A DNA stretch of 64,000 bases from Magnetospirillum aberrantis SpK (GTDB lineage: Bacteria; Pseudomonadota; Alphaproteobacteria; Rhodospirillales; Magnetospirillaceae): assembly GCF_011022235.1 (NCBI RefSeq), contig NZ_JAAIYP010000045.1, forward strand, positions 62,001 to 126,000, written 5' to 3'. This document shows, in pieces, positions 49,510 to 64,000 of the stretch. The translations under genes and the position numbers were made by a program. The stretch's first letter is position 1. The number at the start of each line of letters is the position of its first letter. Below the pieces are notes generated by a model. It was not told where the DNA came from. It did no database searches and saw only the letters and a program-made list of their open reading frames with translations.

Positions 49510-49529
49510 CCGACAATTGCGTGCCGTGC

Positions 49530-49661: not shown

Positions 49662-51004
49662 TTGGCGGGCGCGCGGTACAGCGACAGGCCGCGGATCAGG
49701 TCCAGCGCGCGGGCCATCTGGTAATCCTGGGTCGGGTCGCCCAGCTTGATCACCACGGGAGCCGGCTTGCCGTCGGCATCCTCGGGCTCGGGCTCGGGAG
49801 TCGCCTTGCCCTGGGGCGCCGCCTTCTTGTCTTCCTTGCCGTTCGGGGCGTCTGGATTGGCCAGCGCACCGCGCAAATGCGCCTCGGCCCGGCGTTCCCG
49901 CTCGGGAACAGCGATCGGCTCGACCTTGGCTTGCAGCACCTTGATGTCGGGCTCGATGCCGACCGCCTGGATCGACCGGCCCGAAGGCGTGTAGTAACGC
50001 GCCGTGGTCAGGCGCATGGAGCCATGTCCCGGCAACTGGATCAGGGTCTGCACCGAGCCCTTGCCGAACGACCGGCTGCCCAGCAGCAGGGCGCGGCGAT
50101 GATCCTGAAGCGCGCCGGCGACGATTTCCGAGGCCGAGGCCGAACCATCGTTGATCAGCACCACCAGCGGCAGGCCGTCGGCGATGTCCCCAGCGCGGGC
50201 GTTGAAGCGCTGGGTGTCCTCGGCCTTGCGCGAACGGGTCGAGACGATTTCCCCCTTGTCCAGGAAGTCGTCGGACACGGCGATGGCCTGATCCAGCAAT
50301 CCGCCGGGATTGTTGCGCAGGTCGATGACGAAGCCGGCGATGTCCTTGCCGATGGACTTCTTCAACTCGGCCATGTGCTTGACCAGATCGCCGTGGGTGC
50401 TTTGGCTGAATTGGGTGATGCGGATATAGCCGATATTGCCTTCGGCGTGCGAGCGCACCGTCTGGATACGGATGACGGCGCGCGTCAGCTTGACGTCGAA
50501 GGGTTCGGCCCCAACGCGACGCACGGTCAGCTTGATGTCGGTATTGACCGGGCCGCGCATGCGGTCCACCGCCTCGGACAGGGTCAGCCCCTGGACCGGC
50601 TCGCCGTCGAGGTGGGTGATGAAGTCACCCGGCTGCATGCCCGCGCGGAAGGCCGGGGTGTCGTCGATGGGCGACACCACCTTGACCCAGCCCTGTTCCA
50701 TGGTCACCTCGATGCCAAGGCCGCCGAACTCGCCCTTGGTGTTGATGTCCATGTCCCGCGAATTCTTGGGATTGAGGTAGCTGGAATGGGGATCGAGCGA
50801 GGTCAGCATGCCGTTCAGCGCCGCCTCGATCAGTTCCTCGTCGTTCACCGGCTCGACGTAGTCCGAGCGGACCTTCTCGAACACCTCGGCGAACAGTTCC
50901 ATCAGCTTATAGGTTTCCTTGCGCTCGGCCGCGTGGGCGGGAACAAGCGACGTGCCAGCCAGCAGGGCAAGCGCACCCGCAGCAATCAAAGTCTTGCGAA
51001 TCAT
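49658..51004 (-). CDS. ctpA: C-terminal processing peptidase CtpA (S41 family)
   Basis: 448 residues. Signal peptide MIRKTLIAAGALALLAGTSL, PDZ domain (~85-165, EFGGLGIEVTMEQGWVKVVS) and S41 protease domain with catalytic Ser in INDGSASASEIVAGALQDHR and Lys in GSRSFGKGSVQTLIQLPGHG. A tail after ~370 is rich in Lys/Glu/Pro. Periplasmic, cleaves C-termini of envelope proteins. ATG overlaps the envC stop by 4 nt (ATGA). Its stop codon lies inside the hairpin block. Confidence 0.95.
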   Translation of the reverse strand: MIRKTLIAAGALALLAGTSLVPAHAAERKETYKLMELFAEVFEKVRSDYVEPVNDEELIEAALNGMLTSLDPHSSYLNPKNSRDMDINTKGEFGGLGIEVTMEQGWVKVVSPIDDTPAFRAGMQPGDFITHLDGEPVQGLTLSEAVDRMRGPVNTDIKLTVRRVGAEPFDVKLTRAVIRIQTVRSHAEGNIGYIRITQFSQSTHGDLVKHMAELKKSIGKDIAGFVIDLRNNPGGLLDQAIAVSDDFLDKGEIVSTRSRKAEDTQRFNARAGDIADGLPLVVLINDGSASASEIVAGALQDHRRALLLGSRSFGKGSVQTLIQLPGHGSMRLTTARYYTPSGRSIQAVGIEPDIKVLQAKVEPIAVPERERRAEAHLRGALANPDAPNGKEDKKAAPQGKATPEPEPEDADGKPAPVVIKLGDPTQDYQMARALDLIRGLSLYRAPAN

Positions 51005-52452
51005 CCACTAACCTTACGTTTCTGAGCGGTGAGCCAAGGCAAGGGGTTCACGGGCTGGCCGTTGCGGCGCAGTTCCACATACAACATGGGCTTGGCTTCG
51101 TCCTGAGCCATGATCCCGACGGGTTCGCCCGAAGTGAGGCGTTGTCCGACCGTGGCGTCAATCCGGGCCATGCCCGCAAGGAGCGTATGATAGCCTTCGC
51201 TGTGTTCGATGATCAAGAGCAGGCCATAGCCGCGAAACGGCCCGGCGAAAGCGACCTGGCCGTCGAAGGGGGCGATGACCTGGGCCCCCTTGCGGGTGGC
51301 GATCTCAAGCCCCTTGTTGACCACGCCGACATCGTTGGTCTGCCCGTACCGGGTGATGATGCGGCCGCGGGCCGGAAACGGCATCTGGCCTTGGCCCTGG
51401 CTGAACGAGCGGCCGGTCGAGGCGGTGCGCGAGGCGGCAACCTCGCGCGCCGCCTTTTCCACGTCGCGGGCGGCTTTCTGGGCCATGATTTCCGCTTCCT
51501 TGGCGGTTTTTTGCGCGGCCAGTTCGGCTTCGCGGGCCGTCTGGGCGGCGGCCATCTCGCGGACCTTGCGTTCCTTTTCCGCCCGTTGCGCGGCCAATTC
51601 GGCCTCGCGCGCCGCCTTTTGCGCGGCCAATTCGGCCTCGCGCGCCGCTTTTTGGGCCTTGATCTCGGCCTCGCGGGCGGCCTTTTCGGCGGCGACCTTG
51701 GCGGCGGCCTCGGCTTCGCGGCGTTTGCGTTCCTCTTCCAGCCGCGTCAACAGGTCGCGTAAATCCTCGGCTTCGCTCGCCAGGTTTCGCAGGCGTTGTT
51801 CGGCGGCATCCGACTCGGCCAAGGTGGCGGTCTGAAGGCTGGACTTGCGCAGCCACAAATCCTTGAGACGGTTGTGCTCGCCCTCAAGCCGGGCGGCGGT
51901 GGTGGCGATTCGTTTCTTTTGCTGGACGATATCGGCCCGCACGCGGGCCATCATGTCGATCTCGCCCTTGAGATCCTGGGCCGAGCGTTCGATCTGCGGC
52001 ACGGCGGCGCGCAGCAGGATGGCCGAACGCACGGTGTCCGCCGGGGTCTGTGGCTGGGCCAGCAAGGCCTCGGTCGGCCGCCACGCCAGACGCTGCAAGG
52101 CGGTCAGCACGCCGGTCATCTGTTGCGACCGCCGCCGTAGCGTTTCGCCCTTGTCGCCTTCCAGCGACTTCAAATCCTCAAGCTGGGTTTCCAACTCGCT
52201 CAGGATTTCCTCGCTTTCCTGGGCGGCGCGGGCGGCGTTGACCATGTCGGTGCGAATCTGGCCCAGTTCGTCGGTGATGGCACGGGCCTTGCGTTTGATT
52301 TCCTCGTGCTCGGCACGCGACCGTTTCAATTGGTCCTCAAGCTCGTGCAGACGGCGGTCGGCGGTGGCCGGGTCCGGCGCTTGCGCCAAAACCGGACCCG
52401 CCGCCAGAACCGCCGCCAGCATCAGCGGCAAAAGGCCGTCATTCCGCCGCAC
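51001..52452 (-). CDS. envC: EnvC-like murein hydrolase activator (degenerate LytM)
   Basis: 483 residues. Signal peptide, then a long coiled coil (~30-345). It includes tandem KAAREAELAAQ repeats near 260-330. The C-terminal LytM domain (~355-475: RGRIITRYGQTNDVGVVNKG, GPFRGYGLLLIIEHSEGYHT) lacks the first zinc-binding His-x3-Asp of true M23 peptidases, as in EnvC. I infer an amidase activator in cell separation. GTG start overlaps the gpmI end by 14 nt. Confidence 0.85.
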   Translation of the reverse strand: MRRNDGLLPLMLAAVLAAGPVLAQAPDPATADRRLHELEDQLKRSRAEHEEIKRKARAITDELGQIRTDMVNAARAAQESEEILSELETQLEDLKSLEGDKGETLRRRSQQMTGVLTALQRLAWRPTEALLAQPQTPADTVRSAILLRAAVPQIERSAQDLKGEIDMMARVRADIVQQKKRIATTAARLEGEHNRLKDLWLRKSSLQTATLAESDAAEQRLRNLASEAEDLRDLLTRLEEERKRREAEAAAKVAAEKAAREAEIKAQKAAREAELAAQKAAREAELAAQRAEKERKVREMAAAQTAREAELAAQKTAKEAEIMAQKAARDVEKAAREVAASRTASTGRSFSQGQGQMPFPARGRIITRYGQTNDVGVVNKGLEIATRKGAQVIAPFDGQVAFAGPFRGYGLLLIIEHSEGYHTLLAGMARIDATVGQRLTSGEPVGIMAQDEAKPMLYVELRRNGQPVNPLPWLTAQKRKVSG

Positions 52453-53995
52453 GGCGCCCCGACAACAAGGGCTGGCCGCTCATTTCCGCCGGCTGCGGCA
52501 GACCAAGCAAAGCCAGAAGGGTCGGCGCCACGTCGGCCAGCTTGCCGTCGGCCAAGGCATCCGCGCCGGCTGGACCGTTCACCAGAAGCACGTCCACCGG
52601 ACCGGTGGTATGCGCGGTATAGGGTTCGTGAGTGTCGGGATCGGTCATCATCTCGGCGTTGCCATGATCGGCGGTCACCAGCATGACGCCGCCCGCCGCC
52701 TTCACCGCCGCTTCCAGCCGCGCCAGGCAACCGTCCACGGTGTGGGCGGCCTTCATGGCCGCCTCCAGGATGCCGGTATGGCCGACCATGTCGCCATTGG
52801 CGTAGTTGGCGACGATCAGGTCGTACTTGCCCGAGCCGATGGCCTCGACCAGCTTGTCGGTGACCTCAAGCGCCGACATCTCGGGCTGAAGGTCGTAGGT
52901 GGCGACCTTGGGGCTGGGCACCAGGATGCGGTCTTCGCCGTCATAGACCTGTTCACGGCCGCCGTTGAAGAAAAAGGTGACGTGAGCGTATTTCTCGGTC
53001 TCGGCGATGCGCAGTTGGGTCTTGCCGGCGGCGCTCACCACCTCGCCCAACAGGTTCGAAAGGCTTTCGGCCGGGAACAAGGTGTCCAGAAAGGCGCACA
53101 AATCCTTGGAATACTCGGTCAGGCCCAGCCGCGCCGAGAAGTGCGGCACGCGGGCCCGGACAAAGCCGTCGAATGCGGGGTCAACCAAGGTGTGCAGGAT
53201 CTCGCGGGCCCGGTCGGCGCGGAAGTTGCCCATCAACAGGCCGTCGCCGTCCTTGATGCCGGCATAGTCGCCGATCACCACCGGCAACACGAATTCGTCG
53301 GTCTTGCCGGCGGCATAGGACGCGTCGATGGCCGAAAGGGCGTCGGCGGCCCGCGGCCCGCTTCCCAGCGCGATGGCGTCGAAGGCCAGTTGCACGCGGT
53401 CCCAACGCTTGTCGCGATCCATGGCGTAATAACGGCCCGACACGGTGGCGATGGCCGCCTTGGTGTCCTTGATGTCCGCCTGGAACTTGGCGACGAAGTC
53501 GCGCGCCGAGCTGGGCGGCGTGTCGCGGCCGTCCAGATAGGCATGCACGGCGACGGGGACATCGGCCGCGTCGGCGATGCGAGCCAGCGCCGCCAGATGG
53601 TCCTGGTGCGAATGGACGCCGCCGGGGCTCATCAGTCCCATGATGTGCAGCGTGCCGCCCGCCGCCCTGACCTTGGCGAAGGCTTCGGCCAACAGGGGAT
53701 TGCCGGCCAGTGAACCGTCGGCCACCGCCTGGTCGATGCGCGGCAGGTCCTGCATGACCACGCGGCCGGCGCCCAGATTCATGTGCCCCACCTCGGAATT
53801 GCCCATCTGGCCGTCGGGCAGCCCCACCGCCAGACCCGACGTCTTGAGCAGGGCATGCGGGACGCTGGCCATCAGCCGGTCCCAGGTGGGGGTGTCGGCC
53901 AGGGCGATGGCGTTGTCGGCGGGATCGTCGCGATGTCCCCAGCCGTCAAGGATGCACAGGACGACGGGACGCGGGGTGTGGGCTTGCTTGGTCAT
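52439..53995 (-). CDS. gpmI: 2,3-bisphosphoglycerate-independent phosphoglycerate mutase
   Basis: 518 residues. Metal site VVLCILDGWGHRDDPADNAI, the catalytic phospho-Ser in QMGNSEVGHMNLGAGRVVMQ and the C-terminal MLVTADHGNAEMMTDPDTHE are intact. It interconverts 3- and 2-phosphoglycerate and uses manganese. First gene of gpmI-envC-ctpA-deacetylase-rppH, a typical alphaproteobacterial order. Confidence 0.97.
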   Translation of the reverse strand: MTKQAHTPRPVVLCILDGWGHRDDPADNAIALADTPTWDRLMASVPHALLKTSGLAVGLPDGQMGNSEVGHMNLGAGRVVMQDLPRIDQAVADGSLAGNPLLAEAFAKVRAAGGTLHIMGLMSPGGVHSHQDHLAALARIADAADVPVAVHAYLDGRDTPPSSARDFVAKFQADIKDTKAAIATVSGRYYAMDRDKRWDRVQLAFDAIALGSGPRAADALSAIDASYAAGKTDEFVLPVVIGDYAGIKDGDGLLMGNFRADRAREILHTLVDPAFDGFVRARVPHFSARLGLTEYSKDLCAFLDTLFPAESLSNLLGEVVSAAGKTQLRIAETEKYAHVTFFFNGGREQVYDGEDRILVPSPKVATYDLQPEMSALEVTDKLVEAIGSGKYDLIVANYANGDMVGHTGILEAAMKAAHTVDGCLARLEAAVKAAGGVMLVTADHGNAEMMTDPDTHEPYTAHTTGPVDVLLVNGPAGADALADGKLADVAPTLLALLGLPQPAEMSGQPLLSGRRAAE

Positions 53996-54319
53996 GTCGG
54001 GCGCTGGTCTTGAGCTTTCTTGTTGATCTGGTCCGCAGGCGCGGGCGGTGCAAGCCTATACCTTTTCCCGGTTGGGGGCCATGCGGTTGCGGGCATCGAC
54101 ATTGACAGCGTCGGGCGCTGGCGGAAGAATGGCGCCCCATGCCACGCGGGGACGTGGAGAAATTGGTAAACTCTGGCGACTTAAAAAAGATTGCGCCTAC
54201 GTGTTTTTGCCACTTACCGCATTGATTTAGCTGGAAATTCTTGCCGTTGACGCGCGTGCACAGTCCATGCACAGTATTCGCGCGCACGCTGCTGCGTGCC
54301 CATGGACTTGGAGCGCGGT
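53996..54319. other. Intergenic region at the chromosome/element junction
   Basis: These 324 nt hold no gene. They contain the gpmI control region, the left att repeat (54142-54186) and a stretch up to the first integrase. In the last part, TGCACAGT occurs twice (54257-54264 and 54268-54275), 11 bp apart or one helical turn, a spacing seen for arm-type or repressor sites. A GGAG at 54310-54313 serves the first integrase. Confidence 0.5.
54142..54186 (+). repeat. Left attachment site with 5' half of tRNA-Leu(UAA)
   Basis: This 45-bp sequence recurs exactly at 55547-55591. From 54148 it reads as the first 39 nt of a tRNA-Leu: acceptor GGGGACG, TG, D-stem GAG, D-loop AAATTGGTAAA, CTC, then the anticodon region GGCGA-CTTAAAA with anticodon UAA. 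The pairing 3' half is absent here; AAAAGATT follows. I infer the host half of the attachment site, with the crossover at the anticodon loop. Confidence 0.75.
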
Positions 54320-55546
54320 ATGGCAACAGAAATTACCGTCACTGAAGATATCAGGCTTTATATCCGCGACGGAACCAAAAATTACTCGGCGCGCATTCGC
54401 TTGCCTGATGGCAAATGGAAGCGGATTTCAACTGGCACTTCCGACGAAAACAAGGCGCGGGAACAGGCGCTGCACCATTACGCGGAAATGAAGTTCCGCG
54501 TCAGCAATAACCTTGTTCCGGATTCCCGCACGGTTCGTCACGTCTGCGAACAAGCCAAGATGGAGATGCAGGAGGCCCTCGACGCCGGTTCGGGCAAGGT
54601 CATCTGGAACCACTACATGTTCACCATCGACAAGTGGATCATCCCCTTCTTCGGCAATCGTCCCATTGATGGCCTGACCTACAAGGACATGAAGGAGTGG
54701 CAGGACTGGAAACAGGCGCAATGGGGGCGGCGCATGGGCTACAGCACGCTGCGCAATCACAACTCGGCCATGTCGCAGGTGTTCAAATGCGCGCTGCTGC
54801 ACAGCTGGATGAAGGACTTCCAGGTTCCCCAGCAATACAACGGCGGCAAGGCCCCGGAGGCACGTAACGCCTTCCTGGATGACGACTACACCGCCATCAT
54901 GCAGGCGCTGAGCGACGCGGCGGGCACGGGCCGGAAGGCGCGCAGCCGCGTCAAGCGCGAGATCCTTGAGTGCTATGTGGGCGTGCTGTGCACCAGCGGC
55001 CTGCGTCCCGGTATCGAGATGAACACCCTGCGCTGGTGCGATTACGATCCGGAATGGGAAGCTCCCGACGGCTCGACGCATCCGGAACTTCGTGTCCAGG
55101 CCGGTAAGCGCGGCGGACGCGGTGTCATCGTTCGCGCTGCCTGCCGTAAATGGCTGACCCGCATGCGCGAGATTTCGCCGCCCAGCAAGGACACCGACCT
55201 GATCTTCCGCTATCCCGATGGCGAGGCTGTTGGCGACATGAACCGCACCTTCCAGGTGGTGCTGAAGAATGCCGGGTTGCTGATCGACCACAAGGGCAGG
55301 AAGCGGACCCTCTACTGCTGCCGCCACTTCTATGGAACCAACATCCTGGTGTTCCAGCCGGACATCGATCCCATATTCCTGGCGGGTGCGATGGGAACCA
55401 GCGTCGCCATGCTGGAAAGGTACTATGCCGACGCCGATCCAAAGCGAAAGGCTTCGGCTTTCTCGGGCATAACACGCAAGCCCGCAAGTTTGCCCGGCAT
55501 CAACATTGACAGCGTTGTCCGCAAACGAAAGAATATCGACTTCTGA
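54320..55546 (+). CDS. Tyrosine recombinase/integrase 1 (with atypical active site)
   Basis: 408 residues. The arm-binding and core-binding N-terminal parts are followed by a catalytic domain with Arg229 (SGLRPGIEM), Arg335 in YCCRHFYGT, and Tyr368/369 (MLERYYADAD). The usual first His of the HxxR box is Tyr332, and no H/W is seen at the third box (GAMGTS), so activity should be treated with care. ATG 54320 has GGAG 6 nt upstream. Its stop abuts the second direct repeat. No other gene lies between the two repeat copies. Confidence 0.82.
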   Translation: MATEITVTEDIRLYIRDGTKNYSARIRLPDGKWKRISTGTSDENKAREQALHHYAEMKFRVSNNLVPDSRTVRHVCEQAKMEMQEALDAGSGKVIWNHYMFTIDKWIIPFFGNRPIDGLTYKDMKEWQDWKQAQWGRRMGYSTLRNHNSAMSQVFKCALLHSWMKDFQVPQQYNGGKAPEARNAFLDDDYTAIMQALSDAAGTGRKARSRVKREILECYVGVLCTSGLRPGIEMNTLRWCDYDPEWEAPDGSTHPELRVQAGKRGGRGVIVRAACRKWLTRMREISPPSKDTDLIFRYPDGEAVGDMNRTFQVVLKNAGLLIDHKGRKRTLYCCRHFYGTNILVFQPDIDPIFLAGAMGTSVAMLERYYADADPKRKASAFSGITRKPASLPGINIDSVVRKRKNIDF

Positions 55547-55591
55547 CCACGCGGGGACGTGGAGAAATTGGTAAACTCTGGCGACTTAAAA
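55547..55591 (+). repeat. Second copy of the att repeat (tRNA-Leu half)
   Basis: Identical to 54142-54186 over 45 bp and starting 1 nt after the stop of integrase 1. The bases after the identity differ (TCTTATGG here, AAGATTGC at the first copy). This suggests a hybrid site left by a second insertion, or the att site of the integrase-2 element. Confidence 0.75.
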
Positions 55592-55673
55592 TCTTATGGT
55601 AGTGTAGGTTTTCCAAGGGTTTTAGCAGCTATGCGCGTAAAAGCGCGTAATTCCCTAGGAAGGAGCCTACACC

Positions 55674-56783
55674 ATGGGATCTATCGTCGAAGAGAAGCGG
55701 GTCGGTAAGGACGGCAAGGCCGTTACGACCTACCGGGCGCACATTCGGCGCAAGGGCTTCAAGAGCCAGTCCAAGACGTTCCGCACCAAGACCGATGCGA
55801 AAGAGTGGCTGCGCAACAACGAAGCCTCCGTCTTGCTTGACAAGAAAGCCAAGGGCGCGGGCACCACGTTCAAGAAGCTCGCCGATCTGTTCGCCGTAGC
55901 GCCCCCGATGAAGGGCACCCGGTATTGGGATTCCTGCCACCTCGATTTCTGGATTGAACAGTTTGGGGCGCTGCACCTCGATGAGGTGAACCATGCCGAA
56001 ATCAACGCGGCGGTAGCGGTGCTACAGACCCGCCCGGCTATGCGGATCACCGCCCGCGGGCCGAAGCCGACCGGCAAGCCGTTGGCGCCCTCAACGGTCA
56101 ATCGCTATCTCGCCACCTTGTCGGCGGTTATGAACTTCGCGCTCAAGCGGGGAATGATTGACGCCCATCCCATGAAGACCGGAAAGGTGGGGAAGCTGAC
56201 CGAGGGCAACGGACGGCGGCGCATCCTTACCGAAGCTGAGGTCACGCGCCTGCTGGACGCTTCCGAAGCGTGCCGGTGGTCGATGATGCCCCTGTTCCTT
56301 CGCATGCTGCTGACGACGGCCGCGCGGAAATCCGAAGTGCTGAACCTGAAATGGCAGGATGTGCACCTGACGGAATCGGTGGCGATCCTGAACGAAACCA
56401 AGAACGGCCGGGCCAGGGCGTTGCCCCTGGTTTCCGACGTGCGGGCCACGCTGGAACAGGCCAGCAAGGTGCGCCCGATCAATTCCGATTACGTGTTCTT
56501 CGATCCCCGGCACCCAGAACGACCGAAAAACGTGGATACCATTTGGCGGTTCGTCCGCAAGCGCGCCGGGTTGCTGAAGGACAGGGACGATCCCCTCGAC
56601 CAAGTGGTGCTGCACACCACCCGTCATTCCGCCATCACCAAGATGCTGAAAGGCGGCGCCAACCTGACGCAGGCTGCGGTGGTTTCCGGCCACCAGACCC
56701 TTGCCATGCTCAAGCGGTACGAGCATTTGGCCGCGCAGGACGCCGTTGAACTCGCCGAGCGCCTGCTTGGCAAGAAGGGGTGA
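55674..56783 (+). CDS. Tyrosine recombinase/integrase 2 (complete active site)
   Basis: 369 residues with a full catalytic set: Arg218 (TTAARKSEVLNL), His314 and Arg317 (VLHTTRHSAITKM), His340 (VVSGHQTLAM) and Tyr349 (LKRYEHL). The N-terminal part (~1-60) has the AP2-like/arm-binding pattern YRAHIRRKGFKSQSKTFRTK. AGGAAGGAG lies 8 nt before ATG 55674. It is about 80 nt past the second att repeat, the usual place for the integrase of the inserted element. Confidence 0.92.
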   Translation: MGSIVEEKRVGKDGKAVTTYRAHIRRKGFKSQSKTFRTKTDAKEWLRNNEASVLLDKKAKGAGTTFKKLADLFAVAPPMKGTRYWDSCHLDFWIEQFGALHLDEVNHAEINAAVAVLQTRPAMRITARGPKPTGKPLAPSTVNRYLATLSAVMNFALKRGMIDAHPMKTGKVGKLTEGNGRRRILTEAEVTRLLDASEACRWSMMPLFLRMLLTTAARKSEVLNLKWQDVHLTESVAILNETKNGRARALPLVSDVRATLEQASKVRPINSDYVFFDPRHPERPKNVDTIWRFVRKRAGLLKDRDDPLDQVVLHTTRHSAITKMLKGGANLTQAAVVSGHQTLAMLKRYEHLAAQDAVELAERLLGKKG

Positions 56784-56800
56784 GCACCCCGGACCCCGCC

Positions 56801-56856
56801 GCCTGACGGCTTCAGGCAGAGCGGATCGGCACGGTGTTCCCGCACTGTGCCGATCC
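56801..56856. promoter_or_regulatory. Two inverted repeats after integrase 2
   Basis: GCCTGA (56801-56806) / TCAGGC (56812-56817) and GGATCGGCAC (56823-56832) / GTGCCGATCC (56847-56856) are perfect stems. No T-run follows. They lie in the 103-nt gap before the 78-residue gene and may regulate it. Confidence 0.45.
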
Positions 56857-56886
56857 TGACCAAGACGCAACGTTGGAGGTTGCATC

Positions 56887-57123
56887 ATGATTGAACAGCA
56901 CAATACCAGCATTCCGACCGGCAGTGAACTCCGCGCCGACGCGCTAGCCCGCTTGGCCCAGGCCCGCACCGTCCTGAATGTTCTTCTGTATGACGGTGAG
57001 TATGTCGATAAATTTGAGCGTCTCGCCCACGAAGAAGTCGTAAACCTCATATGGACAGCAGTCACCTTGCTGGAACAGTCCGAAGACTTCCTCGGAAAGA
57101 TCAAATATGCGTCTGCGCATTAA
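56887..57123 (+). CDS. Small hypothetical phage protein
   Basis: 78 residues, MIEQHNTSIPTGSELRADAL, all-helical and acidic, no cysteines. GGAGG precedes ATG 56887. I recognise no family. It has its own terminator 18 nt downstream, so it forms a short unit with integrase 2 or its own promoter. Confidence 0.6.
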   Translation: MIEQHNTSIPTGSELRADALARLAQARTVLNVLLYDGEYVDKFERLAHEEVVNLIWTAVTLLEQSEDFLGKIKYASAH

Positions 57124-57140
57124 CATAGCGAACTGACCTC

Positions 57141-57170
57141 GTGGGGGCCGCTTCAGCGGCCTCCACTTTT
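57141..57170 (+). terminator. Terminator after the small phage gene
   Basis: GTGGGGGCCGCT and AGCGGCCTCCAC form a 12-bp stem with one G/T pair and a 2-nt loop, followed by TTTT (57167-57170). It ends the transcript 18-50 nt past the stop at 57123. Confidence 0.8.
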
Positions 57171-57210
57171 ATGCTGTCGTACCTACGCAAAATTCACACT
57201 CGGAAACTGC

Positions 57211-57239
57211 TTGACATTTCGAGTATGCAGCGGGAATCT
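57211..57239 (+). promoter_or_regulatory. Promoter of the candidate structured RNA
   Basis: A perfect -35 TTGACA (57211-57216) is followed after 17 nt by GAATCT (57234-57239), a weak -10. It lies between the terminator at 57141 and the structured segment that begins at about 57240. Confidence 0.4.
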
Positions 57240-57449
57240 ACTGACAGTATCTCGAAGCTGAACATTAGCGATGCCAGACCGCGACGACTGGTGAGTACGA
57301 GGCAACACCCCCGAGCGTAAGCTAAAGGTGGTGGTGGCAGACCCCAAGGAACGCACCGCCCTTGGAACTGTCATCCCCTAGTCGAAAGGCTGGGACGGGC
57401 TGTGAGAGATATAGACCGGAGCACTACGATGCTGCCGGTCTTTAATTTA
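57240..57449 (+). ncRNA. Candidate structured noncoding RNA, about 200 nt
   Basis: The segment has no coding frame but dense complementarity. UGACAGU (57242-57248) pairs with ACUGUCA (57367-57373) to close a domain that encloses CCAG/CUGG (57274-57277/57288-57291), CACC/GGUG with an inner AGC-GUAA-GCU hairpin (57306-57330), and CCAAGG/CCUUGG (57344-57349/57360-57365). Next, CCUAGUC-GAAA-GGCUGGG forms a GNRA-capped hairpin (57377-57394). A terminator hairpin AGACCGGAGCA (57413-57423) / UGCU-CCGGUCU (57430-57441) then precedes UUAAUUU. Own promoter and terminators on both sides argue for an independent transcript. It matches no RNA family I know; a pairing by chance cannot be excluded. Confidence 0.5.
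57413..57449 (+). terminator. Terminator of the candidate structured RNA
   Basis: AGACCGGAGCA (57413-57423) pairs with TGCT and CCGGTCT (57430-57441), 11 bp with one bulged G, followed by TTAATTTAT. It lies 41 nt before the next gene and separates it from the RNA. Confidence 0.65.
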
Positions 57450-57489
57450 TGCGGAACGACCGGTGGCGACTCACAGGAAGAGTTGCCCC

Positions 57490-57735
57490 ATGCAAACTTC
57501 TCAGAACCGGCCCGACGCCATCCCTTTGGATGACCTGTACGAGCCGTCCGAACTGGTCGCCATGTTCCCCAAGGTGCTGAGCATCAACACCTTGAAATGG
57601 CATCTATTCAACCGCCACAAGAACGGCCTCGACACCGCGTGCGTGAAAGGCTTCCGCCGCAAAATTCTGATTTCCAAGTCGCGATTTGAACAGTGGTTGG
57701 CAACGCAGACTGACGCCGCGAGGGCCGCATCATGA
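57490..57735 (+). CDS. Small HTH/excisionase-like DNA-binding protein
   Basis: 81 residues: MQTSQNRPDAIPLDDLYEPS then ELVAMFPKVLSINTLKWHLF and FRRKILISKSRFEQWLATQ. The pattern fits an AlpA/Xis-like helix-turn-helix that recognises DNA with a wing (the last strand-turn-helix with a Trp). ATG 57490 follows AGGAAGAG by 8 nt. It lies directly downstream of the RNA unit and overlaps the next gene by 4 nt. Confidence 0.65.
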   Translation: MQTSQNRPDAIPLDDLYEPSELVAMFPKVLSINTLKWHLFNRHKNGLDTACVKGFRRKILISKSRFEQWLATQTDAARAAS

Positions 57736-58046
57736 GCAAAACAGCACATGGGCCAACGCCACTATCCAACTTCGACTTTGGCGAACGCGGCATGTCCGCT
57801 GCGCTGAACATGACCGATGACGAATTCCTTGTCGCCTACATGAATAAGGAAATTGCGCCCCCCGATAGCGTGCGCTCGGGCGAGTCCCGGTGGTCAATCT
57901 GGGCCTTGGCACGGGAAATCACGAAGCGGACCCCGGCTGGTCTGGCAGGATTGGAAATCCTCGTCTACCACATCAACGCGTTGGTACGTGCCGAACAGGC
58001 GGAAGAAGGGCATGACGATGCCCCGCCCCCTCTGAACGTCCAGTGA
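57732..58046 (+). CDS. Hypothetical phage protein
   Basis: 104 residues, starting MSKTAHGPTPLSNFDFGERG, with a helical C-terminal part (GLAGLEILVYHINALVRAEQ). No domain recognised. The ATG overlaps the previous stop (ATGA), so they are one unit; the next gene starts at or near its stop. Confidence 0.6.
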   Translation: MSKTAHGPTPLSNFDFGERGMSAALNMTDDEFLVAYMNKEIAPPDSVRSGESRWSIWALAREITKRTPAGLAGLEILVYHINALVRAEQAEEGHDDAPPPLNVQ

Positions 58047-58060
58047 CGGGGGGGGCATGC

Positions 58061-60094
58061 ATGAACCGGATCGCATCCGAAAAGGCGAAAGCCCCGGTGG
58101 GCACCGGGGCTTTCAATTTGGGTCATGAGTTTGGTTTACCGAGGGTCGAAACGGAATGTAGCTCACATTGTGGTGAGCTACGCGCACCCTCCGCACTTCG
58201 GGATTTGTCTGCCTGGCTGATCTGGCGTTACGAACCCGGCGACAAAAAACCGCGCAAGGTGCCGTACTACGTGACCGGCGGCCGTCGCAAGGGAACCCAG
58301 GGTGGCGCCGAGGATCGCGCCCACCTTGTCACCTTCGACGCGGCCACCGACGCCGCGAAGCGTCGTCAATTTGACGGCGTGGGATTTGCCACCCTGCCCG
58401 AATTCAACGTGGTCGCCCTCGATTTCGACCGCTGCGTCGTCGACGGCACCGTGCATCAGGACGTGGAAAAGCTGGTCGCCGGCACCTACGCCGAATATTC
58501 GCCGTCCGGCAACGGAGTCCGGGCCTTCATGCGGGGCAACTTGGGCAATGGCAAGGACACCAAGGGGGAATTCGGTTTCGAGGTGTTCAGCGATTCCGGG
58601 TTCGTCACGTTCACCGGCAAAACGCTTCCCGTCACCGAAATGTTGGGGACGGCGGACACCATCGCGGACGTGACAACCGAAGTTCAGGCGTTGGCCGCAA
58701 AGCGGTTCAACCGCGTACCGTCCAGCGCCAGCACCGCCGATCCCCTGTTGACCTATGAACCGTGCCTTGGCCTCACCCCGGACCAGATCAAAGCGGCCCT
58801 GGCCGTGCTCGATCCCGACATGGGCTATGGCGACTGGCTGAATGTTGGCATGGCCCTGCACCATGAAACCGACGGCGAAGGCTTCGACTTTTGGAACGAC
58901 TGGTCGGCCGGTGGAAGCAAATACCCAGGGGCCGACCCTCTTCAACAAAAGTGGGGTTCCTTCGGTGGCCAGGGGGGCAGGCCGGTCACGGCCCGATACT
59001 TGGTCAAGCTCGCCAAAGAGCATGGCGTTGGCCTGAACGTCTTTTCCCTCGACGAATTCACACCGCCGACGATGGACGCGCGGAACGACGGCGGGCGTTT
59101 TCATGTGGTCCCAGCGGGGGAGTTCTCCCGCGGGCGGGCGCCCGACTGGATCATCAAGGGCGTGGTTCCCCGTGCCGAACTTGTCGTGCTGTTCGGGGAA
59201 TCTGGTTCGGGAAAATCTTTCCTGGCCTTGGACATGGCCGCAGCCATCGCGCGCGGGGCTGACTGGTGGGGCAATCGCACCAAGCCGGGCCGCGTGGTCT
59301 ACATCGCAGCGGAAGGTGGCGGCGGCTTCCGAAATCGCTTGCGCGCCTACGAACAGGCCCGAGGCGTCAGCCTGGATAGCCTGCCGCTGGGCATCATCCA
59401 CGCGGCCCCCAATTTCCTGCAAAAGGACGACGCGCTGGACGTGGCGCGGGCCATCGGCTCCGCCGACGTGGTGTTCGTGGACACCTTTGCCCAGGTCACA
59501 CCCGGCGCCAACGAGAACGCGGCGGAAGACATCGGCAAGGCCCTCACGCACTGCCGGGGCATCCACCGGGCCACGGGCGCGGTCGTCGTCCTGATCCACC
59601 ACGCAGGCAAAGATCCAACCAGGGGGGCGCGCGGCTGGTCCGGCCTCAAGGCGGCGGCCGATGCCGAGATTGAAGTCCTGCGCCTACCGAACGGACGCAT
59701 CGCCCGGATTTCCAAGCAGAAGGACGGGGAGGACGGCCTCGAATGGGGCTTCGATTTGGTGAAGGTGCCTATCGGCATGGATGACGACGGCGACGTGGTT
59801 GATTCCTGCGTCGTGGAACGTGCCGACACCGTTCCCGCCGCCTGCGGCCGACAGCGACCGCTGGGCATATGGCAGCGATTGGCTCTCGAAATCCTGAACG
59901 AGTTCGCTATCGGTCAGACCGAGGGCATCGAGCCTTCCGCAGTGGTCGCCGAAATGCTGGTCCGCGGCCCCGTCGCGGAAGAAGGCAAGCGCGATGCCCG
60001 AAAGCAGCGTGCGGATCGCGCCTTGCGCGCGGTCTGCGAAGGCGATGACGCGCCGTACCGTTTGGACGGCGATTACATCAAGGTGGCGGAATGA
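58061..60094 (+). CDS. Primase-helicase with PrimPol-like, PriCT-2 and AAA (RepA-like) domains
   Basis: 677 residues. N-terminal primase/polymerase-like region (LSAWLIWRYEPGDKKPRKVP, acidic LDFDR at 120-124, EYSPSGNGVRAFMRG), PriCT-2 region (~238-330, MGYGDWLNVGMALHHETDGE), and a helicase with Walker A GESGSGKS (379-386) followed by YIAAEGGGGFRNRLRA and VFVDTFAQ as Walker B. I infer a replication initiator/primase-helicase of a phage or satellite. The GTG at 58043 overlaps the previous stop; ATG 58061 has a G-rich Shine-Dalgarno. The first ~40 codons contain two perfect hairpins and are poorly protein-like, so the true start could lie further downstream. Confidence 0.85.
   Translation: MNRIASEKAKAPVGTGAFNLGHEFGLPRVETECSSHCGELRAPSALRDLSAWLIWRYEPGDKKPRKVPYYVTGGRRKGTQGGAEDRAHLVTFDAATDAAKRRQFDGVGFATLPEFNVVALDFDRCVVDGTVHQDVEKLVAGTYAEYSPSGNGVRAFMRGNLGNGKDTKGEFGFEVFSDSGFVTFTGKTLPVTEMLGTADTIADVTTEVQALAAKRFNRVPSSASTADPLLTYEPCLGLTPDQIKAALAVLDPDMGYGDWLNVGMALHHETDGEGFDFWNDWSAGGSKYPGADPLQQKWGSFGGQGGRPVTARYLVKLAKEHGVGLNVFSLDEFTPPTMDARNDGGRFHVVPAGEFSRGRAPDWIIKGVVPRAELVVLFGESGSGKSFLALDMAAAIARGADWWGNRTKPGRVVYIAAEGGGGFRNRLRAYEQARGVSLDSLPLGIIHAAPNFLQKDDALDVARAIGSADVVFVDTFAQVTPGANENAAEDIGKALTHCRGIHRATGAVVVLIHHAGKDPTRGARGWSGLKAAADAEIEVLRLPNGRIARISKQKDGEDGLEWGFDLVKVPIGMDDDGDVVDSCVVERADTVPAACGRQRPLGIWQRLALEILNEFAIGQTEGIEPSAVVAEMLVRGPVAEEGKRDARKQRADRALRAVCEGDDAPYRLDGDYIKVAE
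58086..58113. promoter_or_regulatory. 13-bp perfect hairpin at the 5' end of the primase gene
   Basis: GAAAGCCCCGGTG (58086-58098) and CACCGGGGCTTTC (58101-58113) are perfectly complementary, with a 2-nt gap. The shape is like an intrinsic terminator but only CAATTTGG follows. It may be an attenuator or a protein-binding site. Confidence 0.5.
58157..58180. promoter_or_regulatory. 9-bp perfect inverted repeat in the primase leader
   Basis: GTAGCTCAC (58157-58165) and GTGAGCTAC (58172-58180) have a 6-nt ATTGTG loop. It lies 44 nt after the first hairpin, inside the predicted coding frame, and is a possible operator or RNA hairpin. Confidence 0.45.
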
Positions 60095-60111
60095 ACGTGC
60101 AGAAAATTACA

Positions 60112-60239
60112 TGCACCTTGCACCATCTTTTGCACCTTGGTGCACCAAGGTGCGGCGCGCGATCCGCCCATCTGCACCGCACCGCACCACCACCCTATAG
60201 GGGTGGTGCAGTGGTGCAGTGGCGCGGGGTGAAGGTGCA
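60112..60239. repeat. Iteron cluster, candidate replication origin
   Basis: TGCACC occurs at 60112, 60119, 60131, 60141 and 60173, and its complement GGTGCA at 60139, 60205, 60213 and 60234, so forward copies are grouped left and reverse copies right. A perfect 22-bp palindrome centred at 60142.5 spans 60132-60153. A second inverted repeat is GCACCAC (60184-60190) / GTGGTGC (60203-60209) around CCCTATAGGG. The block lies immediately after the primase-helicase gene, the usual location of a phage/satellite origin. Confidence 0.6.
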
Positions 60240-60440
60240 AAATTTTACAAAGACCCCTGGCCGAAATTCCGGCTCCCCGGTGCGACGCGGCGGGGGTGCC
60301 ACACGGTGCCGTCAAACGGCACGCATCGCACACGCGGGCGCGCGATATAGAAAACAGGGCGCTGCCCGGGTGCGATCCGCACATCCGCACACCTAAAAAA
60401 CGCGCGAGCGGATCGTGCAGGACAGAAGGAGGGCGCATTG
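60240..60440. other. Noncoding region after the iterons
   Basis: About 200 nt of GC-rich DNA continue to the next gene. The only structure I see is the hairpin GTGCCGT (60306-60312) / ACGGCAC (60316-60322) with a 3-nt loop. I find no promoter-like pair. GGAGGG just before 60441 serves the next gene. Confidence 0.5.
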
Positions 60441-60677
60441 ATGTTCAGGGTGGTCGCAGTTAACGAAGCCGGTCTGCGCTGCGGCGAAGACCATCCGGGG
60501 GCGAAGCTGACGGATAGCGAAGTCGAGTTGATCCGCCAATTGCGTGAAAGCGGCATGAGCTACGGCGTCCTGGCCGATAAATTCGATGTGTCGAAAAGCT
60601 GCATCGCGGACATCTGCAAGTACAGGCGGCGCGGTCAGTTCGTACTACACGAAAAGAAAGTGCGCGTTCAGGAATAG
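60441..60677 (+). CDS. Small HTH protein of phage type
   Basis: 78 residues: EDHPGAKLTDSEVELIRQLR, then GMSYGVLADKFDVSKSCIAD and ICKYRRR. This is a resolvase-type helix-turn-helix found in many phage-borne small proteins (HPGAKLTDxEV motif). ATG 60441 has GGAGGG 8 nt upstream. Likely a regulator of late genes, by inference from place. Confidence 0.7.
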   Translation: MFRVVAVNEAGLRCGEDHPGAKLTDSEVELIRQLRESGMSYGVLADKFDVSKSCIADICKYRRRGQFVLHEKKVRVQE

Positions 60678-60702
60678 CCCACCGGATATGAAGGGTTTTG
60701 TC

Positions 60703-61026
60703 ATGGAAATGTCTATCGGGAAATTTAAGGGCCAGCCTATCGAAGCGATGCCCACTGCGTACATCGCGTGGTGTCTCTCGCAGGACCACTTCCGTTTCAA
60801 GAATTGGCCTCTGGTCGAGGAAATGTTGAAGGTGCTCCGCTCCCGGCTTGCAGACGCCGACAGCCTGCACGCGGAACTGCGGGTGGAAACCATGCCAAAG
60901 AAGCGGCGGCGGCCAGAACCACGTTGGGCAGCCAGGAAGCGGGAACGTATGGAGAAGCGGCTGCACAAGATGACGGCCCTCCTTCGCCGACAGGTCAATC
61001 CCGACGATGTGAGCGACCTGATTTGA
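60703..61026 (+). CDS. DUF3820 family protein
   Basis: 107 residues. The N-terminal part MEMSIGKFKGQPIEAMPTAY and IAWCLSQDHFRFKNWPLVEE matches DUF3820 (GKFKGxxxxxxPxxYLxW pattern). The C-terminal part is strongly basic (KKRRRPEPRWAARKRERMEK), probably nucleic-acid binding. ATG 60703 with AAGGG 8 nt upstream; the longer frame from 60688 lacks a Shine-Dalgarno. Confidence 0.75.
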   Translation: MEMSIGKFKGQPIEAMPTAYIAWCLSQDHFRFKNWPLVEEMLKVLRSRLADADSLHAELRVETMPKKRRRPEPRWAARKRERMEKRLHKMTALLRRQVNPDDVSDLI

Positions 61027-61116
61027 CCCTCAACAGATATGTAGACTTTCAAAACCCAAGGAAATCCGCGCCATTCCGGCGCTTCGCGTAATTTGGCGTG
61101 TAAGAAGGGCCTCGAA

Positions 61117-61635
61117 ATGGACGACAAAGACATCCCTGCGGCCCTGCGCCGCCTAATCATGACCTTGCAGCAGTACCCGGCGGATAGTCCGGTCGGCCAA
61201 GTGCTCGCCAACCGTTTGCCCCCGGACGACGCCCGCGCCACGCTCGCCTGGCTGGACCGTCAGGCGCGGCGGGAAGCCCTGCCGCTCATCTTTTCCTTTG
61301 AGGTGCCCGGCTATGTGCTGCTCGGTTCGGAAGACGATGCCCGCGCGGTACCCAATCCGGGCTTGGTCGGTCTGAAAGCGGCCTGGGACATCTTTCTGGA
61401 AGGCCCCAGCGCCCCCCTGGTCTACTTCGCCGCCGACAAGGGCATGACATCAAACGGGCTGCGCAACGCCTTGGCGCGCGCCGCGGAGTGGGTTGACCGG
61501 CGATACCCGCCCCTGGCGGTGGCTATTCGGGGCATCAAGGTCCAACAGGACGGATCGGCGTGCTTTGATATGTCGTTGAGGCTGCGCCTAGCTGGCGTGT
61601 TTTCTGCGTGTGCGAAGCCCGCAAGCATCTGGTGA
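61117..61635 (+). CDS. Hypothetical phage protein, 172 aa
   Basis: 172 residues, MDDKDIPAALRRLIMTLQQY onward, soluble. Contains VPGYVLLGSEDDARAVPNPG and SNGLRNALARAAEWVDRRYP. I recognise no family; a role in replication or packaging cannot be claimed. ATG 61117 follows AAGGG by ~7 nt. The next gene starts 50 nt after the stop. Confidence 0.6.
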   Translation: MDDKDIPAALRRLIMTLQQYPADSPVGQVLANRLPPDDARATLAWLDRQARREALPLIFSFEVPGYVLLGSEDDARAVPNPGLVGLKAAWDIFLEGPSAPLVYFAADKGMTSNGLRNALARAAEWVDRRYPPLAVAIRGIKVQQDGSACFDMSLRLRLAGVFSACAKPASIW

Positions 61636-61684
61636 CATGGCATTCTCGGGTTGTTTCGCCAACCAGAGAAAGGGCCGCACCAGG

Positions 61685-62341
61685 ATGCCACTCAATCCCA
61701 AAATTCAGGCGGCGACCGAGGAAAAGGTCCGCCTTGAAAAAAGCCTCGATACCTTGCGGATCGCCCTCGACGATGCCGCGGATGCCAACAAGCCCAACGA
61801 CGTGAAGCGATTGCAGGCGGAAATCGCCGCCACGCGGGAAATGATCGCGTCTTATGGGCGCCGTATCGAAAAGCTGCATGCGCAGGATTCCGAGGTTGAA
61901 CGACAGGCCCGGCGCAAAGCCAACGATGAGGCCCTTGCGCAGTTCAAGCGGCTTTCCAGCAAGCTGCCGGGCCGCGCCGTCGAAATCCGGCATGCCGTGG
62001 CCGCCCTGGCCGCCCAGATCGCCGCTTTCCAAACCATCGCCGATCAGTGCGGTGATCTGGCCTATTCCCTGACGCAGCAGATTGACGAACGCCGTTTCTA
62101 TTCCTCGGTGTTCTTGCACCTTCCCATATACGTCCGCTTCACGGATGGCGTGTTGGGCCACTGCGTCGCCGATGAACTCCGCAAGGCTCGTATTTTCCGT
62201 GAATTTGCGGTCAACCCCCACGTCGATTTGCCCCGTCTGGATCTGTCTCCCATCGAGGAATGCATCGAAGCTCGGGTCGAAAAGCTGACGGTGTACATGA
62301 CCGACGCTTGCAAATATGCCAACGAAGGAATCCAGCCATGA
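61685..62341 (+). CDS. Coiled-coil phage protein, 218 aa
   Basis: 218 residues. A long coiled coil fills residues ~8-90 (KIQAATEEKVRLEKSLDTLR, AEIAATREMIASYGRRIEKL), then a compact helical part (LPIYVRFTDGVLGHCVADEL). No known family. Its end overlaps the Bbp16-like gene by 4 nt (ATGA), so it is the first gene of the late operon and could be a scaffold or connector-like protein, by inference. Confidence 0.6.
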   Translation: MPLNPKIQAATEEKVRLEKSLDTLRIALDDAADANKPNDVKRLQAEIAATREMIASYGRRIEKLHAQDSEVERQARRKANDEALAQFKRLSSKLPGRAVEIRHAVAALAAQIAAFQTIADQCGDLAYSLTQQIDERRFYSSVFLHLPIYVRFTDGVLGHCVADELRKARIFREFAVNPHVDLPRLDLSPIEECIEARVEKLTVYMTDACKYANEGIQP

Positions 62342-62739
62342 TTATCGACGGCGACCTCATGTTTTCCGACAAGCAGGACGTGAGCGCGACGGGCTATTCG
62401 TCCAACACGGTGGAAATTCACCCCAACCTCAGCCCCGCCGGCCTCGACATGGCCGTGCAGATCGTCGTTCGCAGCGCGTCGAGCGAAGCCGCGACACTGA
62501 CCGTGGAACTGGAAACGTCCAGCGACAACACGGCCTGGGCGAAGGTGGCGGGCGTGGCGAAGCCCTCCGGCGAGGCCGTTTTCAGCCTTTCGCTGAACAA
62601 CGTCGCCGGCCTCCGCAAGTACCTGCGGCTGCGCTACGTGGTGAGCGGGGCGTTCAACATCATGTCCATGCTGGTAGCGGGCAGCGGCTTTTCGAGCGCC
62701 GCCCGCGTCGGCAACCTTCCGGCCCGCGGTCAGGAATAG
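62338..62739 (+). CDS. Bbp16-family capsid cement (decoration) protein
   Basis: 133 residues beginning MIIDGDLMFSDKQDVSATGY, then SSNTVEIHPNLSPAGLDMAV and a beta-rich part (TLTVELETSSDNTAWAKVAG). This N-terminal motif is the hallmark of the Bbp16 capsid cement family described in Bordetella phage BPP-1. It would stabilise an icosahedral head. It overlaps the previous gene (ATGA). Confidence 0.82.
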   Translation: MIIDGDLMFSDKQDVSATGYSSNTVEIHPNLSPAGLDMAVQIVVRSASSEAATLTVELETSSDNTAWAKVAGVAKPSGEAVFSLSLNNVAGLRKYLRLRYVVSGAFNIMSMLVAGSGFSSAARVGNLPARGQE

Positions 62740-62753
62740 AGGGAGGGGGCGTC

Positions 62754-62906
62754 ATGAGTACCGAGGAAAAACGAACCTTCGTCCGCGACTATCTGAACGG
62801 CCATGCCGACGTGTGTTTCCGGCAGGCCGTCTATGCGTTGCAGTTGCTCTACAACCCCGCGCATTTGGACCTGCTGTTCGGCATGGCCTTGCGCCGGGCA
62901 TACTGA
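62754..62906 (+). CDS. Small phage protein, 50 aa
   Basis: 50 residues, MSTEEKRTFVRDYLNGHADV then CFRQAVYALQLLYNPAHLDL and ending LRRAY. GGGAGGGGG 4-10 nt upstream of ATG 62754. It lies in the virion-protein operon. No recognised family. Confidence 0.65.
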   Translation: MSTEEKRTFVRDYLNGHADVCFRQAVYALQLLYNPAHLDLLFGMALRRAY

Positions 62907-62918
62907 GGGAGGGCCGAA

Positions 62919-63230
62919 ATGTCCGGTGCCATCACCGCCGTTGCCATTGCATCCGTCGCTTCCGCGGCCTATGGCATCTACTCGGGCGAACGGGCGGCCG
63001 ACGCGCAAAAATCGGCCCAGGCCCAAGCGCGAGAAATCGCCGACAAGCAAGCCAACGCCGCCCAGCAGGCTTTGAACCAGGCCAACCAGAAGAAGCCCGA
63101 CACGTCGGCCATCCTGTCGGCGGCTCAGCAGACCGGAAGGGGCGGTCAGTCCGGCACCATGTTGACCGGGCCGCAGGGCGTTGACCCGACTTCCTTGACC
63201 CTGGGCAAGAACACGCTGTTGGGGTCGTAG
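62919..63230 (+). CDS. Small phage virion-associated protein with hydrophobic N-terminus
   Basis: 103 residues. The N-terminus MSGAITAVAIASVASAAYGI is a hydrophobic helix, followed by Ala/Gln-rich coiled coil (QKSAQAQAREIADKQANAAQ). GAGGGAGGG precedes the ATG. Typical in shape for small internal virion or spanin-like proteins of podoviruses. Assignment is tentative. Confidence 0.6.
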   Translation: MSGAITAVAIASVASAAYGIYSGERAADAQKSAQAQAREIADKQANAAQQALNQANQKKPDTSAILSAAQQTGRGGQSGTMLTGPQGVDPTSLTLGKNTLLGS

Positions 63231-63232
63231 TC

Positions 63233-63781
63233 ATGGGCCTCTCATCCGAACAGACGGCGATGATAGCGGCGGTGTCGAATACTGGCGGTGCAGTGAACAG
63301 CGCCATCGGCAGCTATTACAGCGCAAAAAGCCAGGCATCGAGCCTCAAGTTTCAGGCCGACATCGCCGATATCAACGCCCGTGTCGCCGAACTCGGGGCA
63401 CAGTCCGAGCTTGCGGCCGGGGAAAGGCAAGTTGCCGCCCAGACCTTGCGTGCGGGCCAGATCAAAGGCGCACAGCGCGCCGCGATGGCGGCCAACGGTA
63501 TTGACCTGGGTGAAGGGAATGCCGCCGAGGTGCTGGCGTCCACCGATATCGTGAAGGAAATCGACAAAAACACGATCACCACCAACGCGCTGCAATCCGC
63601 GTGGGGCTACCGGCTTCAGGGAACGAACGCCCAGGTCGACGCCCTGATAAAGCGGGGTACCGCCGCCGGTATCAGCCCGTTCGGTTCGCTCACAACGTCC
63701 CTGTTGGGCAGTGCCGGCAGGGTGGCGTCCAGTTGGTACGACTACACCAAGATCATTGAGAACAAGGGGGGCAAGCCCTGA
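63233..63781 (+). CDS. Internal virion protein (T7 gp14-like)
   Basis: 182 residues: an N-terminal hydrophobic stretch (MIAAVSNTGGAVNSAIGSYY), then a long Ala-rich helix (RQVAAQTLRAGQIKGAQRAA, MAANGIDLGEGNAAEVLAST). Length and the hydrophobic-start/Ala-helix layout resemble internal core protein gp14 of T7-like and Bbp-type phages that form the ejected channel. Starts 2 nt past the previous stop. Confidence 0.65.
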   Translation: MGLSSEQTAMIAAVSNTGGAVNSAIGSYYSAKSQASSLKFQADIADINARVAELGAQSELAAGERQVAAQTLRAGQIKGAQRAAMAANGIDLGEGNAAEVLASTDIVKEIDKNTITTNALQSAWGYRLQGTNAQVDALIKRGTAAGISPFGSLTTSLLGSAGRVASSWYDYTKIIENKGGKP

Positions 63782-64000
63782 TGGCCCGCGTTCCGGTCTA
63801 CAACACGCCCCAGGTGGCGCCCAATTCGCTACCCGCTCGCGGTTTCTCCGCTCCGGCCATGCCCCCCGTGGCCGGACAGCAGGCCCAAGAAATGGGCATG
63901 GCGATGCAGAATTTCGGCGGGCATGTCGGCTATATCGCGCAGGACATGGCGGTGCAGGCCAATCGTGCACGCATCGCGGACGGCATGAACCAGCTTGTGA
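63781..64000 (+). CDS. Phage internal virion/tail protein, N-terminal part (cut by window edge)
   Basis: ATG 63781 overlaps the previous TGA by one base. The visible 73 residues begin MARVPVYNTPQVAPNSLPAR and continue APAMPPVAGQQAQEMGMAMQ then NFGGHVGYIAQDMAVQANRA. An unstructured Pro-rich start followed by helix is usual for large core proteins (gp15/gp16-like). Too short to name; the rest lies beyond the window. Confidence 0.6.
   Translation, partial: MARVPVYNTPQVAPNSLPARGFSAPAMPPVAGQQAQEMGMAMQNFGGHVGYIAQDMAVQANRARIADGMNQLV

Follow-up and report, generated by a model that had tools for sequence, protein, structure and literature searches.

A predicted structured RNA between integrase and excisionase-like genes in an apparent prophage of Magnetospirillum aberrantis SpK, and its possible role as a regulated operon leader

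To our knowledge, lysogeny switches built on RNA have seldom been described in detail other than in enterobacterial prophages and satellites. In Proteobacteria, the int-alpA RNA motif is a candidate RNA located between integrase and alpA genes. One paper's table lists this motif in two of five E. coli strains. In PMC4825925, IsrK of the Gifsy-1 prophage is described as a short RNA with a leaky terminator and a masked ribosome binding site (RBS) downstream, which is opened in trans, and the CI RNA of P4 is described as acting on seqA and seqC. Here we analyze a predicted structured RNA for which, by analogy, IsrK would be the closest known system in mechanism, while the int-alpA motif is the closest in position.

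The window (the whole stretch of 64,000 nucleotides that was analyzed) contains two integrases and a primase locus near the left end of an apparent prophage. The features of the locus are collected in Table 1. The RNA occupies a slot flanked by a tyrosine integrase and an excisionase-type gene, in that order, and the 81-aa gene, the 104-aa ORF and the primase/helicase gene that come after it form an overlapping series on the plus strand. The predicted fold of the 81-aa protein appears to resemble those of solved excisionases. Searches of Pfam, PHROG and NCBIfam returned no family for either the 78-aa or the 104-aa ORF. Because the product of 62919-63230 has a weak match to T7 gp14 (E 0.0012, below the curated cut-off), we read the element as a phage rather than as a small satellite.

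Table 1. Features of the locus in window coordinates. Pair probabilities are from the ensemble of 57225-57449 unless other ends are given.
Feature	Position	Strand	Evidence
First tandem integrase	54296-55546		PHROG 5.8e-29; Pfam below its cut-off
Second tandem tyrosine integrase	55674..56783	+	Pfam Phage_integrase 1.6e-26; PHROG 1 integrase 5.8e-52
78-aa ORF 5' of the RNA, family not assigned	56887..57123	+	ORF listing
Intrinsic terminator	57141..57170	+	11-bp stem; hairpin 57141-57166, then TTTTATG
TTGACA, possible -35	57211..57216	+	exact; 9 copies in the 64 kb, both strands counted
Predicted structured leader RNA body	57238..57412	+	pair probabilities; z -2.35 and -2.66
Possible closing helix	57244-57248/57399-57403	+	probability 0.00 to 0.94, depending on the ends chosen
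Stem enclosing the GUAA hairpin	57306-57309/57330-57333	+	pair probability 0.81
GUAA-loop hairpin	57314-57316/57321-57323	+	pair probability 0.98
Local stem, capped by 57344-57349/57360-57365	57333-57340/57368-57375	+	pair probability 0.87
Capping stem	57344-57349/57360-57365	+	pair probability 0.99
GAAA-loop hairpin	57377-57383/57388-57394	+	pair probability 0.97
Terminator-like hairpin with T-rich tail, end of the RNA	57413..57450	+	pair probability 0.95-0.98
RBS hairpin, arms GGCGACUC/GAGUUGCC, loop ACAGGAA	57465..57487	+	8 bp, -15.9 kcal/mol
Excisionase-like small protein, putative winged helix, 81 aa	57490..57735	+	
104-aa ORF, overlaps both neighbours	57732..58046	+	ORF listing
Primase/helicase, PriCT_2 and AAA_25 domains	58043..60094	+	Pfam 2.9e-17 and 2e-39

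Several repeats were observed around the slot. A perfect 45-bp direct repeat (54142-54186 and 55547-55591) has one copy before each integrase gene, and by eye it resembles the first (5') half of a gene for tRNA-Leu(UAA). A search of the genome with 54080-54290 returned only the two repeat sites at E 0.001, and a complete tRNA-Leu(taa) gene is present elsewhere (locus L118, 6842-6926, minus strand). The two copies suggest that integration took place in tandem or that an integrase remnant is present. A 14-nt inverted repeat (56823-56856; 93% complementary, 6-nt loop) is located between the second integrase gene and the 78-aa ORF, and the fold of 56701-56912 gives z scores of -4.3 on the plus strand and -4.8 on the minus strand. 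Downstream, 9 of the 44 TGCACC/GGTGCA hexamers of the window are clustered in 60112-60240 together with many inverted repeats, and 60001-60212 has the lowest plus-strand fold z of the 426 windows tested (-7.1, with -5.9 on the minus strand). The position of this cluster, 3' of the primase-helicase gene, suggests a replication origin.

The preliminary description, made from the sequence, presented the RNA as an independent unit with its own promoter, a terminator on either side and no open frame. The upstream terminator (57141-57170) was found by a consensus terminator scan and the downstream one (57413-57449) in the predicted fold. The upstream one would close the preceding transcription unit and shield the region from upstream transcription. 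The downstream one consists of helices 57413-57419/57435-57441 (0.98) and 57420-57423/57430-57433 (0.95) followed by TTAATTTAT, and it forms at a probability of 0.95-0.99 in all nine start/end combinations that include it; its absence from the output of the same consensus scan is perhaps due to its bulge. The TTGACA of the promoter is exact but lacks a good -10, since no more than three of six positions match at spacings of 15-18 and four of six only at spacing 20. If this hexamer is a -35, transcription would start near 57246, inside the 5' arm of the long-range helix discussed below; such a start cuts the arm, so that the two elements of the preliminary description are incompatible with each other. 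The candidate promoter of the leader is weak. A consensus promoter scan of 55600-58300 found none, with 0.8 expected in shuffles, and a looser scan of 57171-57490 by hand gave TTGACA at 57211 (2-3 of 6 matches at -10), CTGACA/CATTAG at 57241 (5+3 matches) and GTGAGA/TACGAT at 57402/57425 (4/6 each), the latter being the sole pair near the second terminator, with its -10 inside that terminator.

The start codon at 57490 follows the terminator tail, which ends at about 57450, at a distance of about 40 nt. Because this gap is short and holds no convincing or consensus promoter, the operon is probably read through 57171-57489, and the excisionase-like gene and its partners are most simply transcribed through the unit, although an alternative-sigma-factor or phage-specific promoter may be located between the terminator and this gene. 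With a gene directly 3' for which no convincing promoter of its own was found, the description of the unit as independent is not supported. Nor is it free of open frames: a plus-strand ORF spans 57141-57320 (59 aa from GTG, 31 aa from ATG 57225) and a minus-strand ORF of 63 aa spans 57183-57374. Such ORFs mean little, however, because we counted 109 ORFs of 50 aa or longer overlapping 48000-64000.

Fold strength was calculated as a z score of the folding energy against shuffles. For 57220-57450 the plus strand folds at -81.5 kcal/mol (z -2.61), with 3 of 200 dinucleotide shuffles as good, whereas 60 of 200 shuffles are as good as the minus strand (z -0.59). For 57238-57449 two runs gave z -3.72 and -3.51 on the plus strand, and the minus strand gave -0.77. 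With the terminator removed (57238-57412), the scores were those of Table 1 on the plus strand and +1.04 on the minus strand, while the terminator hairpin alone (57410-57449) has -16.7 kcal/mol and z -4.9. Much of the fold excess is the terminator, and the body alone is moderately unusual. In windows of 120 nt with starts in 57165-57285, z stays within -0.5 to +0.6, which places the excess in the 3' half. Across both strands of the 64 kb, z reaches -2.5 or lower in 4.7% and -3 or lower in 3.5% of 426 windows (212 nt each). The excess of 57238-57449 is real but modest. The region was proposed to be a structured RNA, and this proposal agrees with a fold better than shuffled on the plus strand only and with a terminator of its own.

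The ensemble of 57225-57449 gives high pair probabilities to the local stems and to both GNRA loops (GUAA and GAAA) noted earlier. The long-range helix UGACAGU/ACUGUCA (57242-57248 with 57367-57373), proposed to close the RNA, has exact complementarity but is not the favoured fold. A perfect 7-mer pair at least 100 nt apart is present in 31% of mononucleotide shuffles. Over 24 combinations of start and end, the helix leads in one (0.72 in 57238-57400), stands at 0.43 against 0.49 for the local stem in 57238-57489, and has a probability of at most 0.08 in the other 22, where it should be considered that eight of the 24 combinations begin at 57246 and cut its 5' arm. When forced in 57238-57449, it costs 6.4 kcal/mol (-72.3 versus -78.7). 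The 3' arm is common to the long-range helix and the local stem 57333-57340/57368-57375, as ACUGUCA can pair with either 57242-57248 or 57333-57340, and a two-state switch between the two is conceivable.

Homologues of the RNA were searched for at several levels. A blastn search with 57100-57500 found no match in phages and plasmids and only the window's own genome among 317 genomes of the order (1/317); blastn and nhmmer in 92 loci returned copies of the region itself and one blastn piece at E 0.56, and two exact patterns had no occurrence in viral contigs. We also used a covariance model built from one sequence (R1), which has low sensitivity to distant relatives. In genome sets that have at least the genome of the window in common, the model matched 4 of 385 genomes of the class (self and three weak matches, including one antisense to a long ORF, L121, and one inside a long ORF, L122), 1 of 13 of the genus (self), and 2 of 185 at the phylum level (self and a 47-nt match inside overlapping ORFs). 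It was also run on 100 loci, from which some, mainly the weaker primase matches, had been left out. The three best non-self matches there (E 0.014-0.025; L029, L036 and L037) fall inside the primase match, and seven weaker ones have E 0.39-3.2, including two in the window at 806-856 and 21227-21287. Two matches were obtained in 32 sources (E 0.12 and 0.76). Altogether, the model found no homologue of the RNA in 100, 32 and 3 sources. Literature searches, run without a host or element name, listed no paper on this element.

At gathering scores, no Rfam family was matched in the 64-kb window. The relaxed search gave one sub-threshold match in 56900-57700 and three in 57171-57480 (up to E 10); the matches to HIV-1_SD (E 0.11 and 0.04, below gathering) were taken as a 15-nt chance match. 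The earlier label of an unrecognised RNA therefore holds as far as tested, all Rfam matches being below gathering, but a new RNA class is unproven. The C4 antisense RNA (RF01695) and isrK (RF01394) had no gathering match in the window and none to E 10 in 57171-57480. Because the same gathering search of P4 finds C4 at 74.9 bits and isrK at 60.8 bits, an immunity RNA closely akin to that of P4 would probably have been detected. The suggestion of a P4-like trans-acting RNA is not supported. Rfam searches of 14 further loci and the next 36 kb of the contig returned only tRNAs. Other candidates were rejected: a group I intron (the 3'-terminal string AGAUAUAGACC is reminiscent of the S element, yet no P7 partner was seen by eye and Rfam gave no match), a type III antitoxin of the tandem-repeat kind (there are no tandem repeats), and an attachment site within the unit (the att-like repeat is instead the 45-bp pair at the integrase genes).

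For the primase gene product, 353 relatives were found in viral contigs, of which 80 were kept, together with 25 in genome contigs and 1147 phage records, among which Caulobacter phages gave the best match (48% identity across 78% of the query). In 12 viral primase loci, the plus-strand ORFs within 3 kb upstream had no matching layout by eye. The integrase matched 428 phage records, all less than 60% identical (25 matches listed at 27-28%), and 5 plasmid records at no more than 36%. At E<=1e-20 it was found in 45 of 317 genomes of the order, with non-self identity of no more than 38% among the matches listed, and at 1e-60 only in its own genome among 385 of the class. No relative was found for the 78-aa ORF in phages or plasmids, or for the 104-aa ORF in phages or viral contigs. 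For the excisionase-like protein, none was found in phages or plasmids, and weak matches were found in 9 of 385 class genomes, self included; tblastn in 117 loci returned only the window's own loci and L004-L012. Single-sequence patterns found no relative of this protein in viral contigs, and a search with a pair alignment returned only one contig, L125 (IMGVR_UViG_2914902374_000002). The same contig is the only close integrase relative in viral contigs, with another one (L159) at 26% identity.

In L125, the integrase is 57% identical and the excisionase-like protein 41-42% identical to those of the window, and the slot between the two genes holds an ORF of about 200 aa. With filters off, the covariance model gave no convincing match to the leader RNA in this contig: the best of 54 matches (8.0 bits, 2965-2996) is located downstream of the slot and the best within the slot (1726-1757) has 3.3 bits. 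In contrast, the DNA directly 5' of the excisionase-like start codon can be aligned between L125 and the window. In the window, the Shine-Dalgarno sequence AGGAAGAG (57475-57482) is located in the loop and stem of the RBS hairpin. In L125, a hairpin at about 1767-1797 before the ATG has six pairs in common with the hairpin of the window, one with both sides changed. The RBS hairpin has z -3.9 against mononucleotide shuffles, while 46-nt windows placed on it give only -1.9 (this window) and -1.8; one of 11 other start sites of the window comes close (-1.6). Among the start regions of eight weaker homologues, L012 has z below -2 and the others -1.1 or higher. The RBS hairpin looks like part of a module shared with L125, as judged from two sequences and one compensatory pair, and the leader RNA, again from two sequences, appears to be a variable element inserted in the slot. 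At about 1927-1973, a run of about 47 C with a repeated stretch on its flanks breaks the excisionase-like gene of L125, which is probably an assembly artefact.

We tentatively consider 57171-57489 to be a structured, regulated 5' leader of the operon of the excisionase-like gene, the 104-aa ORF and the primase-helicase gene, which is the most likely reading, with a probability of about 0.42. Transcription would begin before or at the start of the structured region, and the majority of transcripts would stop at the hairpin 57413-57450 and yield a stable RNA of some 200 nt (205 nt with a start at 57246). Any transcript that passes this stop, by read-through or antitermination, would extend into the excisionase-like gene with its RBS held in the hairpin 57465-57487, so that early termination and the RBS hairpin together would silence excision and replication in the lysogen and permit a switch. 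We infer the transcription of the leader, its partial termination and the trigger of the switch. The fold excess on the coding strand only speaks for this reading, and the Gifsy-1 IsrK provides a prophage precedent, in which an sRNA whose terminator is leaky precedes an mRNA masked from translation (PMC4825925). Against it, no homologue that could show covarying pairs turned up in the searches run, and L125 keeps the excisionase-like gene without the leader RNA.

That nearest relative does without the RNA is also consistent with a rather unlikely reading, in which the region is an ordinary spacer made up of a terminator that belongs to the 78-aa gene, another hairpin ahead of the operon, and lightly folding filler without a function of its own. 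The chance-level long-range helix, the near-zero z of the 120-nt windows, the 4.7% of 426 windows here that reach z of -2.5 or lower, and the lack of any relative of the RNA in the searches run fit such a spacer as well; z scores of -3.5 to -3.7 with a clear strand asymmetry do not, and the terminator facing the operon would serve no evident purpose unless a transcript runs into it. That transcript could itself be the product, a stand-alone trans-acting sRNA of about 200 nt that has a promoter and a terminator of its own and targets elsewhere in the phage or host. Terminators on both sides, TTGACA 57211, GNRA-capped stems and a strand-specific fold point to this reading, but it is unlikely given the lack of a good -10 and of homologues; it would also leave the excisionase-like gene without an evident promoter, and complementarity to the start region of this gene is not in excess (longest 7 nt).

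A very unlikely variant is an antisense immunity RNA of the P4/P1 type (C4/CI class), which pairs with its own complements in the leader and enforces termination. The placement of the leader before an excisionase-like gene and the primase-helicase of a mobile element is as expected for this class, and two segments further 5' are able to pair with ACUGUCA (57367-57373); however, these complementary segments are short and at chance level, and C4 and isrK are unmatched in the window though both are found in P4. It is hardly credible that the region acts as DNA, e.g., as integrase arm sites or an origin. It is located between integrase and excisionase-like genes in a mobile element with its own primase, but only one strand shows the fold excess, 56780-57495 has only two two-copy direct-repeat families, neither of them iteron-like, and the denser cluster of short repeats is elsewhere, at 60112-60240. 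We also regard as doubtful a reading in which a lineage-specific RNA of an undescribed class in an exchangeable integrase/excisionase slot would act in cis by early termination of the excision/replication operon, with the released RNA setting lysogenic immunity or copy number in trans by opening or closing the RBS hairpin.

Compared to the known systems, the regulated leader proposed here is most like the IsrK-orf45-anrP region of Gifsy-1, as both have a terminator-ended prophage RNA before a phage control gene with a masked RBS, in our case by sequence and prediction. Unlike that system, the approximately 40 nt from terminator to start codon hold no small coupled ORF, the gene that follows is excisionase-like whereas that of Gifsy-1 is an anti-repressor, and the RNA has no significant complementarity to the masked RBS. 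Three complements of 6-7 nt to the RBS hairpin were found (the longest 57400-57406/57470-57476), 28% of shuffles are as good, and the duplex energy of the RNA with the excisionase-like start region equals the shuffle mean; the step in which the RNA would open the RBS hairpin in trans is only a lead. The locus shares with the P4 immunity leader a (here predicted) structured leader RNA before the replication gene of a mobile element, where termination would decide expression. In contrast to P4, the leader has no Rfam score (RF01695, RF01394) and no long repeats like seqA and seqC, and the excisionase gene is downstream of the RNA, whereas in P4 (8764-9030, minus strand) it is upstream of both RNAs. 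With the int-alpA motif the locus has in common the same kind of integrase/excisionase-type slot, without any significant Rfam match. If our account of the leader is true, the combination of termination with a masked excisionase RBS would be a solution unrelated to the RNA-based ones of P4 and Gifsy-1.
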